Positions 9,934-19,990 of a stretch of DNA of 64,000 nucleotides are shown piece by piece. The notes under the pieces were generated by a model. It saw nothing but the letters and a program-made list of their open reading frames with translations. It was not told the origin of the DNA and made no database searches. How positions within the stretch are numbered: the first letter of the stretch is position 1; each line of letters opens with the position of its first letter. Both the position numbers and the translations under genes were made by a program. The DNA comes from Flavobacterium sp. KMS (lineage in GTDB: Bacteria > Bacteroidota > Bacteroidia > Flavobacteriales > Flavobacteriaceae): NCBI RefSeq assembly GCF_000813005.1, contig NZ_JSYP01000001.1:124001-188000 (forward strand), read 5' to 3'.

Positions 9934-11256
9934 TTATAATTCATCTGTTAATTTAAAACGAAATTTAAAAATTTGACTCTCTCTCTCAACTTCTAAATTT
10001 ATCCAAATATCATCTTCCGATTTTAGCAATGCATTTACTTGTTGCAAAGAGTATTTATAGGCTTTATTTCCGTTGATGCTAATAATAATATCTCCGCTTT
10101 TTAGACCTGAAAGCTCAGCAGCAGATTTTTTTCGAATATTAGCTATTTCAAAAACAGGTTTTAATTGAAATTTATATCTAAAATCATTACTCATTTTTTC
10201 TCCTTTAGAATCAAATGAATCTCCCATCATAGGGACAGTTTCAAGATGTACAGTTTCTTGTACCCATTGCAAGCCATTGTGCTGAATTATAATTCCGCTT
10301 TTATTATAAGTAAAAGGATGAGAGAAATCTCTATTTTTCTTGAGGTATATTTTTTTATCAGCATAGTCAAAAACCAATGTAAACCTTTTTAAGATCTCCC
10401 CTCCTACAGAACCTATCCTATCTGGAACCATCCTTACATTACGAATAGAACTTGAATCTGGAAAAGCAATTATAGGATTCTTAAAAGTAAAATCTCCAAT
10501 AGAAAACGAAGAAACTCTGGCTCGCCTTCCCTCAATATCTCCACTAAATCCTTTTCCTAAATAATCTTCAAAGTTTTTCTTAGGTACTTTTATTCTTGAG
10601 TTTTGAAAAACCCAAAAAGCATCACTATTCCCAATATCAATTAAAAGTTTGGCAGGGGTTTCAATACTGTCTATAACTGCAGTAGAATAAAGATATGGTT
10701 TGGATTTCTCTATAGTAATAGGAATAGACTTGAATTTTTTCTCAAATTTAATTCGATTTTGTTCATTCGATTTAAAGACAATAATTTTTTTCTTTTGATA
10801 ATTAATCTCAACTAAATTATTTCTAAAAAACTGATACCCTATAATACCATTTACAGGAATGCCTATATGAGAAGACAAATTAAAATCCTGATCCAATATT
10901 ATATACAATAAATGATTTGTCGATTTTAAACCATTTATATCTAATGTGTTATTTGTCGATTTTAAACCTTCGATTGCTTCTTCGGCTCCTAAACCTCTAA
11001 GCCTTATTTTTTCGACATTAAAAAAATTTACTTCCTTTTTATCTTCTAAACTAAAAAGCACGGTGTCATCGACTCCAGAGTCTAATAAAAAATTTAATTC
11101 GACTCCATTTACCTTTATTGGTACAAATATTAAATTATTTATTAATTTAAAGGGAATACTAATCTTGTTAGTATGTCCATCGATAACAAATCCATCTTGT
11201 GCAAATGCAGTAAAGGTGACTATTTGCAAAAAAAACAAAGTAATTTTTCTTTTCAT
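9934..11256 (-). CDS. Secreted retropepsin-like aspartic protease with PDZ domain
   Basis: The product is 440 residues with a signal peptide (cut after TAFAQ, residue 20). The N-terminal half carries two pepsin-like lobes. The first catalytic motif is LLDSG (D59-S-G). The second is LLIDIG (D207-I-G) and is less canonical. A PDZ domain occupies about 365-430 (LSGLKSGDIIISINGNKAY). This architecture, a clan AA aspartyl protease plus C-terminal PDZ, is common and uncharacterised in Bacteroidota. It should act in the periplasm or at the outer surface. It is transcribed alone, divergent from the aminotransferase gene. The second active-site triad departs from D-T/S-G, so activity is likely but not certain. 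Confidence 0.87.
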   Translation of the reverse strand: MKRKITLFFLQIVTFTAFAQDGFVIDGHTNKISIPFKLINNLIFVPIKVNGVELNFLLDSGVDDTVLFSLEDKKEVNFFNVEKIRLRGLGAEEAIEGLKSTNNTLDINGLKSTNHLLYIILDQDFNLSSHIGIPVNGIIGYQFFRNNLVEINYQKKKIIVFKSNEQNRIKFEKKFKSIPITIEKSKPYLYSTAVIDSIETPAKLLIDIGNSDAFWVFQNSRIKVPKKNFEDYLGKGFSGDIEGRRARVSSFSIGDFTFKNPIIAFPDSSSIRNVRMVPDRIGSVGGEILKRFTLVFDYADKKIYLKKNRDFSHPFTYNKSGIIIQHNGLQWVQETVHLETVPMMGDSFDSKGEKMSNDFRYKFQLKPVFEIANIRKKSAAELSGLKSGDIIISINGNKAYKYSLQQVNALLKSEDDIWINLEVERESQIFKFRFKLTDEL

Positions 11257-12596: not shown

Positions 12597-12651
12597 AGCT
12601 AGGAATTCGCAAATTAGCCAATGTTAATTTGTGAATTCCTAGCTTTTTTTT
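12597..12651 (+). terminator. Rho-independent terminator of the aminotransferase gene
   Basis: Bases 12597-12616 and 12625-12644 pair over 20 bp with a single G-U wobble (AGCTAGGAATTC...), with an 8-nt loop and a run of T from 12643 to 12651. Bases 12652-12779 of the same intergenic gap show nothing recognisable. Confidence 0.88.
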
Positions 12652-12779: not shown

Positions 12780-12851
12780 ACAATAAAAACTTATCATGTT
12801 ACAATAAAAACTTATCTGGGAAAACACCACATGAGCATATTTATACCTTTG
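12780..12851 (+). promoter_or_regulatory. Direct repeats plus -7 box upstream of the CotH-like giant gene
   Basis: ACAATAAAAACTTATC occurs twice, at 12780-12795 and 12801-12816, a perfect 16-bp direct repeat with a 21-bp period (two helical turns). Downstream at 12844-12851 is TACCTTTG, an exact match to the Bacteroidota -7 consensus TAnnTTTG. No good TTG lies at the -33 distance, which would suit an activator-dependent promoter. Transcription would start near 12857 and the GTG start is at 12896. The regulator is unknown. Confidence 0.5.
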
Positions 12852-12895: not shown

Positions 12896-15800
12896 GTGAA
12901 AAAAAAACTATACCTTTTTCTTGCTTCACTGTGCCTCATTGGTGGCTACTTAAATGCCCAACAAAAGACACAGCTCCCTATCAAGGGCAGCTACAATGAT
13001 GTTGCAATAACTACATCATCTAATGCTGTAAACTATACAAGTACCGGCTTATACTTAGAGGGTGGAACTACCTCTGCTCCAACCGAAACATACATCCGTT
13101 TCCAAGGAATTTCATTACCAGCAGATGCTGTTATACAGAGTGCTAATCTTATATTTTATGGAAGAAGTGCCAGTACAGTGGGCACAACCGTTACTATTTT
13201 TGGAGAAAGAGGTAATTCGGATGCATATCCTACCTCTACCGCAACAACCACCGCTACTTCAATAAAAGGACGTCAATACACATTCGATTCCGTAACATGG
13301 AATACCCCTGTTTGTGTAGCAAATAAAGAGTACACAACACCCGATGTAACAAACTTATTACAGGATATGTTTCCTGCAGGTGTAGGAAATGCCAATATAT
13401 CTTTTAAACTCGCAGGAAATCAAAAAGGCTCATTTGTTATGTGGTCTTTTGACGGAAACGCTGCTATGGCTCCCAAATTACAAATAACTTTTACATCGGC
13501 TTACGGCACTTTTACAACTACCGTGTTAGCTAATACCGATGATGGTCGCGAAAATACCAATGGATCAATGTACCTAACAGATGGCTACATCAACCTAGGA
13601 GGAAGATCTGACTCTAGTAATAGTGTTGTAAGGTTTCCTGTTGTCGAAATACCAGAAAAAGCAGAAATATCAGAAGCTTACATAGAGTTTTATTCCTATG
13701 GAACAAGCCCTGCAAGTACCGTAAACATCTATACTGAATTAGCAAATGCTGCTACATACGCTACCACTTCTGGCAATGCTACCAAAAGAAACTATTCTGC
13801 AAACACAGTTAATTGGTTTACCGAGTCTTGGGTTGTGAACAATAAACTATATAGAACACCTGATCTTAAAAACATTATAGATGCAACTCGTCTATCGGGA
13901 TGGCAATCGGGTCAAGCAATCGGATTTAAATTCGTCGGGCCTTTACTAAATAATGGAGCTACTGCATGTACCAATGAAATGGGTGCATCTTACAAACCAC
14001 GTCTTGTAATAAAATACAAAACAGAAGGGAATGGTCCCAAAATCGAAACAAATCCGCTAAATGGAGTTTCAGCAAGCGTTATATCAACTGGAAATGATGA
14101 TGCAAGAGAATATACCAATGGCAATATGGCTTTGGGAGATGGTTATATGCATTTAAGTGGACGTACTGATGGCAGCGACAGCGGTTTTATTTTTAGAAAT
14201 ACCCAAATTCCAGCAAATGCAGAAATCAAAGATGCTTATATCGAATTTTATGCATACGCCACAAGTCCTGCTACAACCGTAAATATATATGCTGAGAAAA
14301 GCAAAAATTTGCCTTACACAAATAATCCTAAAAGCATAACGGCTCGCGAGTATACCAATAACAACATTCAGTGGGCAACCGAAGCATGGACTAGTGATTT
14401 GGCAAAAAACCGAACTCCTAATCTAAGAAATGTTATCGACGAAATCCGTTTAAACGGATGGAAATCGGGCGAAAATATCGCATTCAAATTCAATGGAACT
14501 GGCTTAAACGATGGAGCAAGGGCTTATGCATACGAGGGATCAACACTTTACAGACCACGCTTAGTCGTAGAATATGTTAACAACGGTGCGGGCCCAAGCA
14601 TAGTAGTTGACCCAAACGAAATACAAACCTCTGCCTCGATTGTGTCTACAGGAAATGATGACGGAAGAGAATATACTAACGGTAATATGGCTTTGGGAGA
14701 CGGCGCTATCTTTTTAAGCGGACGTACGGATGGCAGCGACAGTGGTTTTACTTTTCGCAATACCCAAATTCCAGCAACTGCAGAAATTAAAGAAGCATAT
14801 ATCGAATTTTACGCTTACGCCACAAGTCCTGCTACAACAGTAAATATATATGCCGAGAAGAACCAAAAATCACCTTACAGCTATAATCCGAAAAGTATTA
14901 CGGCTCGCGAATATACCACTAATAACATTCACTGGGCGACTGAAGCCTGGACTACCGATCTTGCAAAAAAAAGGACCCCTGATCTGAGAAATATCATAGA
15001 CGAAATTCGTTTAAACGGATGGAAATCAGGCGAAAATATTGCATTTAAATTCAATGGACAAGCTTTAAATGACGGTGCAAGAGCTTACGCATACGAGGGA
15101 TCTACACTTTATAGACCACGTTTGGTAGTTAAATATGTTAACAACGGCGCAGGGCCAAGCATAGTGGTTGACCCGAACGAAATACAAACTTATACCACGT
15201 TTGTGAATACAGGAAATGATGATGGAAGAGAATATAACAACGGTAATATGGCTTTAGGAGACGGTGCTCTCTTTTTGAGCGGACGTACCGATGGCAGCGA
15301 CAGCGGTTTTATTTTTCATAATACCCAAATTCCAGCAAGTGCAGAAATCAAAGAAGCTTATATCGAATTCTACGCTTACGCTACAAGCCCTGCCACTAGC
15401 ATAGATATATATGCCGAGACGAGTCAAAAACTGCCTTATACATATAGCCTTAAAAGCATTACAGCTCGTGAGTATACCAATAACAAAATCAACTGGGCAA
15501 CTGAAGCCTGGACTACAGATCTTGCAAAAAACCAAACTCCTAACCTTAGAAATATTATTGACGAAATTCGTTTAAACGGATGGAAATCAGGCGACAATAT
15601 TGCATTCAAATTCAATGGACTAGCCTTAAACGATGGTGCAAGAGCTTATGCATACGAGGGATCAACAAGCTACAGACCACGCCTGGTGATAAAATATGCT
15701 AACAACGGTAAGGGACCAAGAATTGTCATTGATCCAACCGAAATACAAACTTCTGCCTCGATTGTAAATACAGGAAATGATGATGGAAGAGAATATACCA

Positions 15801-18800
15801 ATGGTAATATGGCTTTAGGAGATGGCGCTCTCTTTTTAAGCGGACGTACTGATGGCAGCGACACTGGTTTTACTTTTCGTAATACCCAAATTCCCGCAAA
15901 TGCAGAAATTAAAGATGCTTATATCGAATTTTACGCTTACGCCACAAGCCCTGCTACAACCTTAGATATATATGCTGAGAAGAACCAAAAATCACCTTAC
16001 ACATATAATCCTAAAAGTATTACGGCTCGTGAATACACCAATAATAAGATTCACTGGGTAACCGAAAACTGGACTACCGATCTTGCAAAAAACCGAACTC
16101 CTAATCTTAGAAATATTATTGACGAAATTCGTTTAAACGGATGGAAATCGGGCGAAAATATCGCATTCAAATTCAACGGAATAGGCTTAAATGATGGTGC
16201 AAGAGCTTATGCATACGAAGGATCTTCATTTTATAGACCACGTTTGGTAATAAAATATGCTATTAACGGTGCAGGACCAAGTATAGTTGTTGACCCGAAC
16301 GAAATACAAACCGAAGCTTCGATTGTAGCTACCGGAAATGATGACGGAAGAGAATATACCAACGGCAATATGGCTTTGGGAGACGGCGCTATGTTTTTAA
16401 GCGGACGTACTGATGGTAGTGACAGCGGTTATATTTTTCGCAATACCCAAATTCCGGCAAATTCAGAAATTAAAGATGCATATATCGAATTTTACGCTTA
16501 CGCCACAAGCCCTGCTACATCTGTAGATATATATGCCGAGGTAAACCAAAAAATGCTTTACACATATGACCCTAAAAGCATTACGGCTCGCCAATATACC
16601 AATAATAAAATCAATTGGGTAACTGAAGCTTGGACTACTGATCTTGCAAAAAAACGAACTCCTAATCTTAGAAATATTATCGATGAAATTCGTTTAAACG
16701 GATGGAAATCGGGCGACAATATCGCATTAAAATTCAATGGGCTAGGCCTAAATGATGGTGCAAGAGCTTATGCATACGAAGGTTCCACGCTTTATAAACC
16801 ACGTTTAGTGGTAAAATACGCTAATAACGGTGCAGGGCCAAGTATAGTGGCTGACCCTACCGAAACACAAACCTCTGTTTCGATTGTAACTACTGGATAC
16901 GATGATGGCCGCGAGAATACTAATGGTAATATGTATTTAAGTGATGGTTATTTATCATTGGCTGGGCAATCCGATTCTTATAAAACAGGGATTCGTTTTC
17001 AAGCTGTTGAATTTCCTACTAATGCCGAAATAACAGAAGCATATATTGAATTTTATGCCTATGGTTCAAGTAATGCAACTACGGTATCTATAAAATCTGA
17101 GATTGGTGATGCGCAAACTTATTCGACAATAAAAAATAATATATCGAGCCGAGCTTATTCTGAAAATACCGAATTATGGAATACGGATACACGTGCTGAT
17201 TACGCACAAAACCGTACGGTGGATATTAAAAAACTAATAGACGAAAACCGTTTAAGAGGATGGGAAGCAGGACAAAGCTTGGCTTTCTTATTTGAAGGCA
17301 AAGGCGTATCGTCTAACTATGCTCGTGTACGTTCTTACGAAGCTGGTAATATGTACAGACCTCGTTTAGTAATTAAATACAAAGACAATCAAAAAGGACC
17401 AAATGCAGCATCTGTAATTAGTGCGCTAAATAATGTAATAACTACCCCATCGCAAATGACTGGACTTGTTATTAACGAAGTATCAGCACAAGGTACCATA
17501 GATCAGAAGGAAGACTGGATAGAGATATATAATAGTCTTGATAAAATGATTCTTATCGATAGTAATGTTTCGGTATCAAATAAAGACACTAAAAAAGATC
17601 TTAATATACTAAAAAACATTCTTGTTCCTGCTAAAGGTTTTGCTGTACTAATAGCAGATAAAAAACCAGAAAAAGGAGACTTCCATCTTAATTTCGATTT
17701 AAAAAATACAGGAGGCACACTCTATTTATCGACTTTAGTAGGCAAAAAGACAACTGCTTTGGATGAATTAAAATACTTAGAAACTCCATATAATACAAGT
17801 TACGGACGAAGTACAGATGCGGCATCTACTTTAGCGGCTTTCATCAATCCTACATATAATCTATCTAATAGTGTGGGGCAACAAGGATTGGCTTTATCGT
17901 TCAGTAAAGAAAGAGGCGTATATCCAACAGGATTTGATGTGACTATCACTGCTCCAGCAGGTACTACAATTAATTATACACTAGACGGTAAGTTTCCTTC
18001 AAAAACAGTTGGAACAAAATACACCATTCCTGTTTCTATAAAACAATCTTGTGTACTTAAAGTATATGCTTATGACGCAACTGGTAATTCGGGAGTAGCA
18101 TCCCACACTTACGTATTGCAAGACAATTATAAGAACGAGTTACCTACCAGTTATGCGCAATGGTATAATAAAACTTATATCTTAACAGCCGACGAATATT
18201 CAAAAGCAATAGCTGAATTACCTATCATTTCTATATCGACAGACGCAGAGATATCTCCTCTTTGGGTACAAGGCTCGTTTGAGTATATAGATAAACATAT
18301 TTATAGTGACCATGCTAACTTTTTCTCAAATTCTACTACGAAACAGTTTGGACAGGCAAGTCTAGCACAATATAACGGCGGAGTTAAATTTAAATTCAAC
18401 AAAAACGCAGCCGTTAAAAAAGCAAATTACCCTTTCTTTGATACCTATCCTGGTGAAGTTTATCCTACTACAAATAAGATACAAGTTATCTCATTGAAAG
18501 AAGGACAAGATGGTCCTCAGAATAATATTTACAATACTGGTTACTTACGTTTCGACGAGAAGATAACAATGAACCTTAGCAAAGAAATAGGTAAATATGC
18601 ACTAGACACTCGCTATGTGAATTTCTTTATAAATGGTAAATACAGAGGCGTTAAGACCATGAGAAACGACTTTAGTTCCAATAACTTAGAAGAAGTATTT
18701 GGAGATGATGCTGATAATTACACAACCGTAAATTTACAGGATGGTAATTTTCCAGGAGGTGTTGTTGAGGAAGGCGATGGTAGTACTGCCATTTGGCAAA

Positions 18801-19990
18801 ATATAAAGAAACTCGCAGCAGCCAAAGATTTTCAAGGTTTTAAGAATTGGGTAGATGTTGAAGACTTAATCAAATTCCAGATTATGTTTATGTTTACTGA
18901 TACAGAAAACGAAGCAATTGCTATAGTACACAACTATGCACCGACTTTCATGAAAGCCAAAATGAATATAAATGATACCGATGGTGCATTTTTTGGAGGA
19001 TTCACAGCCCCTACTTCAACAACAACAATGCCTGCAATAGGTTTTGCTGGTGGTGGAGGTAATTACAAACAAAAATGGATTTTAAATGATTCCAGATTAG
19101 GCCCTGGTGGCTTATTCGGCAACTTCATGGGCTCAAATACGAATCAAACTACGGGTAACCTCGAATTTAAAACACTCGTAAAAGATTATGTACAGGCAGC
19201 ATTTGGAGATTCAAAAAGTACGGTTGCAGCTCCTCTTTCTGTGAGTAATGTACAGACTAAGATAAAAACTACAGTGACCGAACTGAATAATGTGTATAAA
19301 CTGGACGCAGCTTATATGTCTTATGACAGAGAAGTCTACAATTATTGGAAAAATATAGATGTACCCAGAGTAATAGCTCAAGTACCTGAAAGGGTATCTT
19401 ATTCATTGCAAAAATGGCAAGAATACAATATGGTTCATACTTTGCTGGCAGCACCATTTGATACAACTGTTACAGGGCATATTACAATTAACAATCCTAA
19501 TACAGGAACACAAGTGTATTATACGACCGATGGTTCAGATCCTATGGGCAAAGATGGTGTTGTTTCTCCATCGGCATTTCTGTACGATGCAAATAAAGGT
19601 ATTACACTTTCTACGGGGACTTATTCGTTGGTATCGAGAGCTTTTACCACTAATAACTGGGGGCCTTTGTCTAAGGCAGACGTAAAAGGTAGCCTAATGA
19701 CTAAACGTTCGGCAGCAAATATTTCGGAAGAATTATTAAATACCGAAGCTCAACATGTAATTATTTACCCTAACCCTGCTTATAACGAAATTAATGTAAA
19801 CTTAGAGAATACAGCTTCTGTAAATTCAACTATGAGTATTTACTCTATCGATGGAAAACTGGTACAGAACAATACCTTAACAAGTCAATCTAATACTGTA
19901 AATATTGGAAATCTAAATTCTGGATTTTATATTATAAAGATTGTAAATGGCAATGGTACAGTAAGTACACATAAGTTAATTAAAAAATAA
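12896..19990 (+). CDS. Giant T9SS cargo: DNRLRE-like repeats, lamin-tail and CotH-kinase-like domains
   Basis: The product is 2364 residues with a GTG start and a signal peptide cut after LNAQ (about residue 22). Next come eight beta-sandwich units of the DNRLRE/CBM96-like type: a divergent one at about 25-200, another at about 205-390 and six from about 395 to 1500. A lamin-tail domain is at 1522-1645 (LVINEVSAQG...DWIEIYN) and chitobiase-like beta domains at about 1678-1748 and 2190-2265 (YYTTDGSDP). A CotH-type kinase-like domain spans about 1775-2190, with FINGKYRGV at 1912-1919, a T-D-T-E-N...HNY segment and N-D-T-D-G at 2026-2030 in the expected place of the metal-binding acidic motif. 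The last 78 residues (from 2287) are a type-A T9SS sorting domain (IIYPNPA, LNSGFYIIKI). It should be exported through T9SS and attached to the surface. Substrate and kinase activity are unproven. It is a single-gene unit. Confidence 0.9.
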   Translation: MKKKLYLFLASLCLIGGYLNAQQKTQLPIKGSYNDVAITTSSNAVNYTSTGLYLEGGTTSAPTETYIRFQGISLPADAVIQSANLIFYGRSASTVGTTVTIFGERGNSDAYPTSTATTTATSIKGRQYTFDSVTWNTPVCVANKEYTTPDVTNLLQDMFPAGVGNANISFKLAGNQKGSFVMWSFDGNAAMAPKLQITFTSAYGTFTTTVLANTDDGRENTNGSMYLTDGYINLGGRSDSSNSVVRFPVVEIPEKAEISEAYIEFYSYGTSPASTVNIYTELANAATYATTSGNATKRNYSANTVNWFTESWVVNNKLYRTPDLKNIIDATRLSGWQSGQAIGFKFVGPLLNNGATACTNEMGASYKPRLVIKYKTEGNGPKIETNPLNGVSASVISTGNDDAREYTNGNMALGDGYMHLSGRTDGSDSGFIFRNTQIPANAEIKDAYIEFYAYATSPATTVNIYAEKSKNLPYTNNPKSITAREYTNNNIQWATEAWTSDLAKNRTPNLRNVIDEIRLNGWKSGENIAFKFNGTGLNDGARAYAYEGSTLYRPRLVVEYVNNGAGPSIVVDPNEIQTSASIVSTGNDDGREYTNGNMALGDGAIFLSGRTDGSDSGFTFRNTQIPATAEIKEAYIEFYAYATSPATTVNIYAEKNQKSPYSYNPKSITAREYTTNNIHWATEAWTTDLAKKRTPDLRNIIDEIRLNGWKSGENIAFKFNGQALNDGARAYAYEGSTLYRPRLVVKYVNNGAGPSIVVDPNEIQTYTTFVNTGNDDGREYNNGNMALGDGALFLSGRTDGSDSGFIFHNTQIPASAEIKEAYIEFYAYATSPATSIDIYAETSQKLPYTYSLKSITAREYTNNKINWATEAWTTDLAKNQTPNLRNIIDEIRLNGWKSGDNIAFKFNGLALNDGARAYAYEGSTSYRPRLVIKYANNGKGPRIVIDPTEIQTSASIVNTGNDDGREYTNGNMALGDGALFLSGRTDGSDTGFTFRNTQIPANAEIKDAYIEFYAYATSPATTLDIYAEKNQKSPYTYNPKSITAREYTNNKIHWVTENWTTDLAKNRTPNLRNIIDEIRLNGWKSGENIAFKFNGIGLNDGARAYAYEGSSFYRPRLVIKYAINGAGPSIVVDPNEIQTEASIVATGNDDGREYTNGNMALGDGAMFLSGRTDGSDSGYIFRNTQIPANSEIKDAYIEFYAYATSPATSVDIYAEVNQKMLYTYDPKSITARQYTNNKINWVTEAWTTDLAKKRTPNLRNIIDEIRLNGWKSGDNIALKFNGLGLNDGARAYAYEGSTLYKPRLVVKYANNGAGPSIVADPTETQTSVSIVTTGYDDGRENTNGNMYLSDGYLSLAGQSDSYKTGIRFQAVEFPTNAEITEAYIEFYAYGSSNATTVSIKSEIGDAQTYSTIKNNISSRAYSENTELWNTDTRADYAQNRTVDIKKLIDENRLRGWEAGQSLAFLFEGKGVSSNYARVRSYEAGNMYRPRLVIKYKDNQKGPNAASVISALNNVITTPSQMTGLVINEVSAQGTIDQKEDWIEIYNSLDKMILIDSNVSVSNKDTKKDLNILKNILVPAKGFAVLIADKKPEKGDFHLNFDLKNTGGTLYLSTLVGKKTTALDELKYLETPYNTSYGRSTDAASTLAAFINPTYNLSNSVGQQGLALSFSKERGVYPTGFDVTITAPAGTTINYTLDGKFPSKTVGTKYTIPVSIKQSCVLKVYAYDATGNSGVASHTYVLQDNYKNELPTSYAQWYNKTYILTADEYSKAIAELPIISISTDAEISPLWVQGSFEYIDKHIYSDHANFFSNSTTKQFGQASLAQYNGGVKFKFNKNAAVKKANYPFFDTYPGEVYPTTNKIQVISLKEGQDGPQNNIYNTGYLRFDEKITMNLSKEIGKYALDTRYVNFFINGKYRGVKTMRNDFSSNNLEEVFGDDADNYTTVNLQDGNFPGGVVEEGDGSTAIWQNIKKLAAAKDFQGFKNWVDVEDLIKFQIMFMFTDTENEAIAIVHNYAPTFMKAKMNINDTDGAFFGGFTAPTSTTTMPAIGFAGGGGNYKQKWILNDSRLGPGGLFGNFMGSNTNQTTGNLEFKTLVKDYVQAAFGDSKSTVAAPLSVSNVQTKIKTTVTELNNVYKLDAAYMSYDREVYNYWKNIDVPRVIAQVPERVSYSLQKWQEYNMVHTLLAAPFDTTVTGHITINNPNTGTQVYYTTDGSDPMGKDGVVSPSAFLYDANKGITLSTGTYSLVSRAFTTNNWGPLSKADVKGSLMTKRSAANISEELLNTEAQHVIIYPNPAYNEINVNLENTASVNSTMSIYSIDGKLVQNNTLTSQSNTVNIGNLNSGFYIIKIVNGNGTVSTHKLIKK
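14063..17410 (+). repeat. Tandem coding repeats, exact 561-bp period
   Basis: The codons for G-N-D-D (G-Y-D-D in the last unit) start at 14090, 14651, 15212, 15773, 16334 and 16895, always exactly 561 bp (187 codons) apart with no indel. The first five of these units are nearly identical, sharing runs such as NGNMALGDG, SGRTDGSD, ATSPAT and DEIRLNGWKSG. The sixth has diverged. An earlier, more divergent unit has its D-D at 13538, 558 bp before the first of the series. Confidence 0.93.

Follow-up and report, generated by a model that had tools for sequence, protein, structure and literature searches.

An eight-unit DNRLRE array and a divergent CotH-fold module on a giant predicted secreted protein of Flavobacterium sp. 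KMS

Between an aminotransferase gene and folE, Flavobacterium sp. KMS carries a giant gene whose product joins an array of DNRLRE-type units to a predicted lamin-tail domain (LTD), a CotH-kinase fold and a sorting tail of the type IX secretion system (T9SS). Here, we analysed this gene within a window of 64,000 nucleotides (positions 124,001–188,000 of contig NZ_JSYP01000001.1, assembly GCF_000813005.1; coordinates below are window-relative), for which an earlier note, made from the sequence alone, had described exact 561-bp repeats, suggestive of recent amplification or gene conversion, in a CotH-like T9SS cargo protein. The less ordinary features of the system are the variable length of the array, the insertion of a single gene at a junction that is otherwise conserved, and a CotH fold with an altered active site.

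The giant gene and its repeat array

The gene and the parts of its product are placed as follows, the central units u2–u6 by DNA self-comparison and unit register.

12896–19990 (+): giant gene, a single open frame of 2364 aa with a GTG start
12896–12961 (+): putative N-terminal signal peptide with a hydrophobic core and the end ...YLNAQ, judged by eye
13001–13489 (+): DNRLRE unit 0 (residues 36–198), 32.2 bits to Pfam CBM96 against a cut-off of 26
13532–14089 (+): DNRLRE unit 1 (residues 213–398), a diverged flank with 47–49% amino acid identity to the central units
14090–14650 (+): central unit u2
14651–15211 (+): central unit u3
15212–15772 (+): central unit u4
15773–16333 (+): central unit u5
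16334–16894 (+): central unit u6
16895–17455 (+): DNRLRE unit 7, a diverged flank with a counterpart in 4/4 Flavobacterium carriers (83–90% amino acid identity among carriers)
17465–17779 (+): LTD fold (model residues 1–105)
17939–18112 (+): Fn3_assoc / CHB_HEX_C_1 domain (Pfam)
18215–19435 (+): CotH kinase fold (residues 1774–2180), also a Pfam CotH match
18908–18982 (+): CotH active-site stretch
19439–19687 (+): second CHB_HEX-like domain (chitobiase-C-like; structural match 8ayr, Z 11.3)
19763–19987 (+): T9SS type A sorting domain (TIGR04183 / PF18962; NCBIfam and Pfam Por_Secre_tail)

The register noted earlier was confirmed: the G[NY]DD unit starts at 14090, 14651, 15212, 15773, 16334 and 16895 are always 187 codons (561 bp) apart in one open frame, and DNA self-comparison returned five copies with spacings of 561, 561, 561 and 561. 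Five 300-nt copies of 83–86% identity in a single register are, judged from these lengths, far beyond chance. In total there are eight units, the five central ones and the diverged units 0, 1 and 7. The repeats are thus exact in their spacing but not in their sequence, as the central units share 83–87% pairwise identity in DNA and 82–87% in protein, with a longest exact run of 47 nt between any two of them. Unit 7, at 16895, is 32–34% identical to the central units ungapped and 42–46% aligned. Pairwise synonymous divergence (dS) of 0.39–0.65 and a ratio of nonsynonymous to synonymous divergence (dN/dS) of 0.13–0.22 indicate that the amplification is old and that the units are under purifying selection. 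An assembly artefact, i.e. a collapsed or expanded array, appears unlikely given shared exact runs of at most 47 nt, and the one central unit queried against phage records (14087–14647) had no match there. Separately, the neighbouring open reading frame (ORF) at 9934–11256 contains a 36-bp tandem repeat of 1.9 copies at 10899–10968.

The assignment of the units to the DNRLRE family stands at the level of the whole protein, which scores 87.8 bits with NCBIfam DNRLRE (NF033679) against a cut-off of 34, in eight stretches; unit 0 also exceeds the CBM96 cut-off on its own, and 12 of 19 units match the DNRLRE family at E ≤ 0.001. Genome-wide, four DNRLRE matches were found, every one inside the giant gene and one of them over the cut-off. 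A two-unit structural model (14651–15772; predicted local distance difference test, pLDDT, 73) places the unit closest to 8wab (Z 12.4, root-mean-square deviation, rmsd, 3.5 over 162 residues) and to the carbohydrate-binding module (CBM) 7vbo of family CBM96 (Z 10.6, rmsd 3.4 over 154), followed by TGF-beta-family prodomains at Z 9.2 and below; as modelled, the units have the beta-sandwich fold of CBM96 and of the chondroitin-sulfate CBM. According to PMC9971899, CBM96 binds alginate. No sequence alignment of the units to 7vbo was obtained over its basic, alginate-binding groove (Lys10, 22, 25, 27, 31, Arg36 and Tyr159), and a tandem-unit profile found no CBM by sequence. The unit model also resembles PDB 9n2d_C, a subunit of the extended beta-barrel assembly machinery (BAM) complex of F. 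johnsoniae (Z 7.4); a passage of PMC12611786 compares BamH with 8wab and terms the latter a DNRLRE protein.

The classification of the protein as T9SS cargo was borne out by the type A tail, which reaches 54.7 bits with TIGR04183 against a cut-off of 23, and SprA, the T9SS translocon, is encoded in the genome (PF14349, E 2.7e-147). The giant protein is thus predicted to be exported by the T9SS and anchored at the surface. Sorting leaves T9SS proteins anchored by their C-terminal end, so the N-terminal array would point outward.

Unit number and history of the array

Used as a query against 398 genomes of the genus, the LTD–CotH part matched 19 at E ≤ 1e-10, four of them over the full length at 82–100% identity (the own genome, the sister species Flavobacterium hydatis DSM 2063 [G408], G239 and G311) and the other 15 partially at 29–36%. 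A second, overlapping draw of 328 genus genomes added no further match; among 397 genomes of the family, five other than the own one gave matches, all of them weak and partial, and relatives at 50% and 43% identity were found in two genomes of other families. With one genome per species compared, total unit number is 8 in the window, 7 in F. hydatis, 7 in G239, 4 in G311, 4 in G040 and 8 in G038, and the central units number 5, 4, 4 and 1 in the window, F. hydatis, G239 and G311. The variation in unit number that had been suggested as possible between strains is seen at the level of species. Among the papers listed on tandem-repeat copy number in Flavobacterium T9SS proteins, nothing was pertinent. 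Sharing their flanking units and their locus but holding 1, 4, 4 or 5 central units, these arrays constitute a natural series for studying what array length does when glycan modules sit on a T9SS cargo.

In each of the four Flavobacterium proteins the units are spaced 186–187 aa apart, except for a first step of 180. This almost perfect conservation, together with the weak scores of the central units against the DNRLRE family, is what one would expect if the units were a pure spacer or stalk without ligand binding, their number doing no more than setting how far the protein reaches. The unit fold, however, is that of glycan-binding modules, the units are under strong purifying selection, and an outward-facing N-terminal array would act as a binding arm and not as a stalk on which the CotH module stands, which in our view makes the spacer explanation unlikely.

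Recency of the amplification, as proposed in the earlier note, is countered by synonymous divergence. Between the window and F. hydatis, dS is 0.19–0.29 in the aminotransferase gene, folE and cysS (190 codons of cysS), three neighbouring housekeeping genes, that is, below the divergence among the window's own units; dS is gene-dependent, with 0.42–0.49 in two other neighbours, and is 0.46 in the giant gene itself, from the LTD to the tail. A recent strain-level amplification, with units duplicated lately and unstable now, would be in keeping with the greater similarity among units in the window than in two relatives and with species that differ in unit number, but the dS values and the absence of any exact run beyond 47 nt contradict it for the present copies, and we regard it as highly improbable.

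Each central unit of F. hydatis pairs with the G239 unit at the same position (tree support 93/97, 87/85, 95/89 and 100/99), whereas the window units show no such pairing, and a tree joining window u5 to u4 of both relatives is rejected (approximately unbiased test, p-AU 0.0015). Within-array p-distance is 0.150 in the window against 0.185 in F. hydatis and 0.203 in G239, the window value being lower in 0.999 and 1.000 of 2000 bootstraps. The positional distance between F. hydatis and G239 is smaller than that from F. hydatis to the nearest window unit in 89% of bootstraps, which is a hint only. With the window array less diverged internally than either of the others and lacking a unit-by-unit match to that of its sister species, these data suggest that the amplification is old and that the central part of the array has kept turning over.

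The aminotransferase–folE junction

The giant genes of F. hydatis, G239 and G311 each lie between the same aminotransferase gene and folE as that of the window. In a sample of 121 genus genomes, the aminotransferase gene was found in 118 and folE in 117 at the thresholds used, and 59 genomes, the window included, were syntenic, with folE downstream of the aminotransferase gene on the same strand within 12 kb (best folE row per genome). The gap between the two genes is 137–350 bp in 51 of these 59. Larger gaps occur in G075 and G113 (1.0 kb), G118 (3.0 kb), G115, G095, G031 and G083 (5.6–7.2 kb) and the window (7.8 kb); none of the seven non-window genomes is among the 19 with an LTD–CotH match. 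The junction in G118 and G075 holds other ORFs (L142:2111-4745 and L143:1646-2374), and G113 has a similar stretch. With different ORFs at the same position, the junction looks like a slot for exchangeable genes.

The boundaries of the insert can be read from the flanking sequence, which includes one further feature:

12597–12644 (+): terminator after the aminotransferase gene, with a 20-bp stem

Across seven non-carrier and four carrier sites, the terminator after the aminotransferase gene in carriers differs from that of empty sites, and the window's resembles those of the other carriers; the terminator thus appears to be part of the insert. Downstream of the giant gene, the folE leader resumes in carriers.

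The history of the junction differs from that of the giant gene. A DNA tree of the aminotransferase gene and folE, built for 11 genomes, pairs G311 with the empty-site genome G125 as sisters (100/100) and groups G239 with G113 (97/95); a clade of the four carriers is rejected (p-AU 3.45e-07). The giant-protein tree unites the window, F. hydatis and G239 (96/98), the alternative with G311 replacing G239 being borderline (p-AU 0.049), and dS between the window and G239 is 0.84 in the giant gene, lower than the 1.01–2.06 of the three or four neighbours compared. This conflict between the trees may be explained by horizontal exchange at the junction or by an empty allele that has repeatedly replaced the gene.

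Upstream of the giant gene, a 16-bp direct repeat occurs in two perfect copies 21 bp apart (12780–12795 and 12801–12816), some 80–115 bp before the start codon; two matches were reached in 3 of 100 shuffles, and the copies are possible regulator sites. About 45 bp upstream of the start, TACCTTTG at 12844–12851 resembles the Bacteroidota −7 promoter element.

The CotH-fold module, the proposed function and known counterparts

The LTD–CotH module was modelled with AlphaFold2 over residues 1524–2265 (pLDDT 67.5). The CotH fold, previously suspected at about residues 1775–2190, was recovered by structure prediction: residues 1774–2180 match CotH 5jd9 with Z 27.4 and an rmsd of 2.8 over 311 residues, the next structural match over this region being HipA 4pu3 (Z 10.1). 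Pfam CotH (PF08757) is above its cut-off (26.3 vs 23.8 bits) and is matched by all 6 clade members at E ≤ 0.01. For the putative lamin-tail part, the model matches the fold of lamin A/C (1ifr, Z 9.0), and the Pfam LTD model scores 23.1 bits, below its cut-off of 34.3. A profile built from six LTD–CotH proteins found no CotH PDB chain by sequence; a broader profile of 27 did.

Our active-site alignment comprises 7 rows from the clade, 6 of them distinct, and 19 from outside it; another 6 outside rows without the NG motif were excluded. At the column of the likely catalytic Asp, 17 of the 19 outside rows have Asp and all 7 clade rows have Asn (N2005 in the window protein), and an Arg conserved in 19/19 outside rows is Lys in the clade. 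N2013 and D2027 are invariant in clade and outside rows, and the column of D2029 holds D or E; we took the conserved Asn and the downstream DxD as the metal site. According to a passage of PMC7821199, D228 and D251 are both required for the activity of B. subtilis CotH. We equated the N2005 column with D228 because 5jd9 shows the same 23-residue spacing to its WD as that between D228 and D251; we infer this placement, which is alignment-dependent and falls in a poorly modelled loop. The Asn is no proof of inactivity, as the clade's acidic residues D2002, E2004 and E2006 near N2005 might stand in for the lost Asp. A second CotH protein in the genome (L001:517-3096, an 861-aa frame) has retained the Asp and ends in a T9SS-like tail, both judged by eye, and kinase activity of the divergent clade is testable beside this paralogue. 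Our literature search found no paper on a CotH kinase in Flavobacterium, and nothing pertinent on CotH pseudokinases was among the matches listed.

These residues bear on whether the module is a conventional secreted Ser/Thr kinase of the CotH type that the array targets to glycan-rich substrates. While the high-scoring fold, the Pfam match and the retained N2013 and D2027/D2029 are those of such a kinase, the uniform replacement of Asp by Asn and of Arg by Lys in the clade, at a column whose inferred counterpart is needed in B. subtilis, makes this quite improbable in our estimation. The 'surface enzyme' proposed earlier accordingly keeps its fold but is uncertain as an enzyme, because its likely catalytic Asp column holds Asn.

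Taken together, we consider it somewhat better than an even bet that the gene product is exported by the T9SS, joins a multivalent glycan-binding arm with a middle of variable length to a divergent kinase-fold module, and is encoded on an exchanged one-gene cassette. The eight tandem CBM96/DNRLRE units would form the arm, whose multivalency could confer avidity, most likely for an anionic or other extracellular polysaccharide, and which would keep the module of lamin-tail, chitobiase-C and CotH folds close to the cell or to a substrate. Arm length would shift as whole 561-bp units are gained or lost centrally, between flanking units that do not change, with unequal recombination or conversion homogenising the copies, and the gene would be an accessory cassette swapped by recombination at the aminotransferase–folE junction. 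A bolder version, in which this clade has its own CotH-fold enzyme whose remodelled active site performs a non-canonical transfer reaction at the cell surface, on a lectin arm of adjusted length and a one-gene cassette traded among Flavobacterium species at a fixed junction, would draw on the Asn for the likely catalytic Asp, the Lys for Arg, the invariant acidic loop and the retained DxD; we think it rather unlikely.

Several observations weigh against the reading as a glycan-binding arm with a turning-over middle on an exchanged cassette. The central unit at 14651–15211 stays below the NCBIfam DNRLRE cut-off (23.8 vs 34), a 19-unit profile had no match by sequence to any PDB chain, and the inter-unit geometry of the two-unit model is unreliable at its pLDDT. 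As to turnover, a single clade of window units is neither rejected nor supported (p-AU 0.142), the best tree weakly places window u6 with the last central units of the relatives (74/90), and fixed differences between arrays number 0 for window and F. hydatis, 2 for window and G239 and 1 for F. hydatis and G239, so there has been no clean species-specific homogenisation. As to the cassette, the patchy distribution could result from repeated loss by exchange with the empty allele.

Each component of the protein has counterparts elsewhere. The units share the beta-sandwich fold of CBM96/DNRLRE proteins (NF033679; PDB 7VBO, an alginate CBM; PDB 8WAB, a chondroitin-sulfate CBM), from which the window protein differs in having eight in tandem, five of them alike, and in that the central unit tested falls short of the family cut-off. 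The linkage of LTD and CotH, which the earlier note had called unusual, is, on profile hits, a widespread pairing: both occur together in 63 of 83 ORFs with such hits (80 loci), a sample that favours the pairing, the loci having been picked by LTD- and CotH-region peptides. It is also present in the cellulosomal Cthe_0239 of Clostridium thermocellum, given as LTD-LTD-Fn3-CotH in a passage of PMC6083626, where the order of LTD, Fn3-type and CotH parts is that of the window protein; Cthe_0239 is a cellulosome component for which that passage lists no DNRLRE array, whereas the window protein is a predicted T9SS cargo with one. Five Saprospiraceae ORFs (L055, L056, L061, L067 and L112; LTD-DNRLRE-LTD-CotH) likewise combine DNRLRE with LTD and CotH, but with a single DNRLRE unit between two LTD parts, unlike the array described here. 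Finally, the window module shares with the CotH spore-coat kinases (PF08757; 5JD9/5JDA) the fold over 311 residues, N2013 and the DxD, and departs from them in its clade's Asn for the likely catalytic Asp and Lys for the otherwise conserved Arg, and in its fusion to LTD, CHB_HEX, DNRLRE and a T9SS tail.

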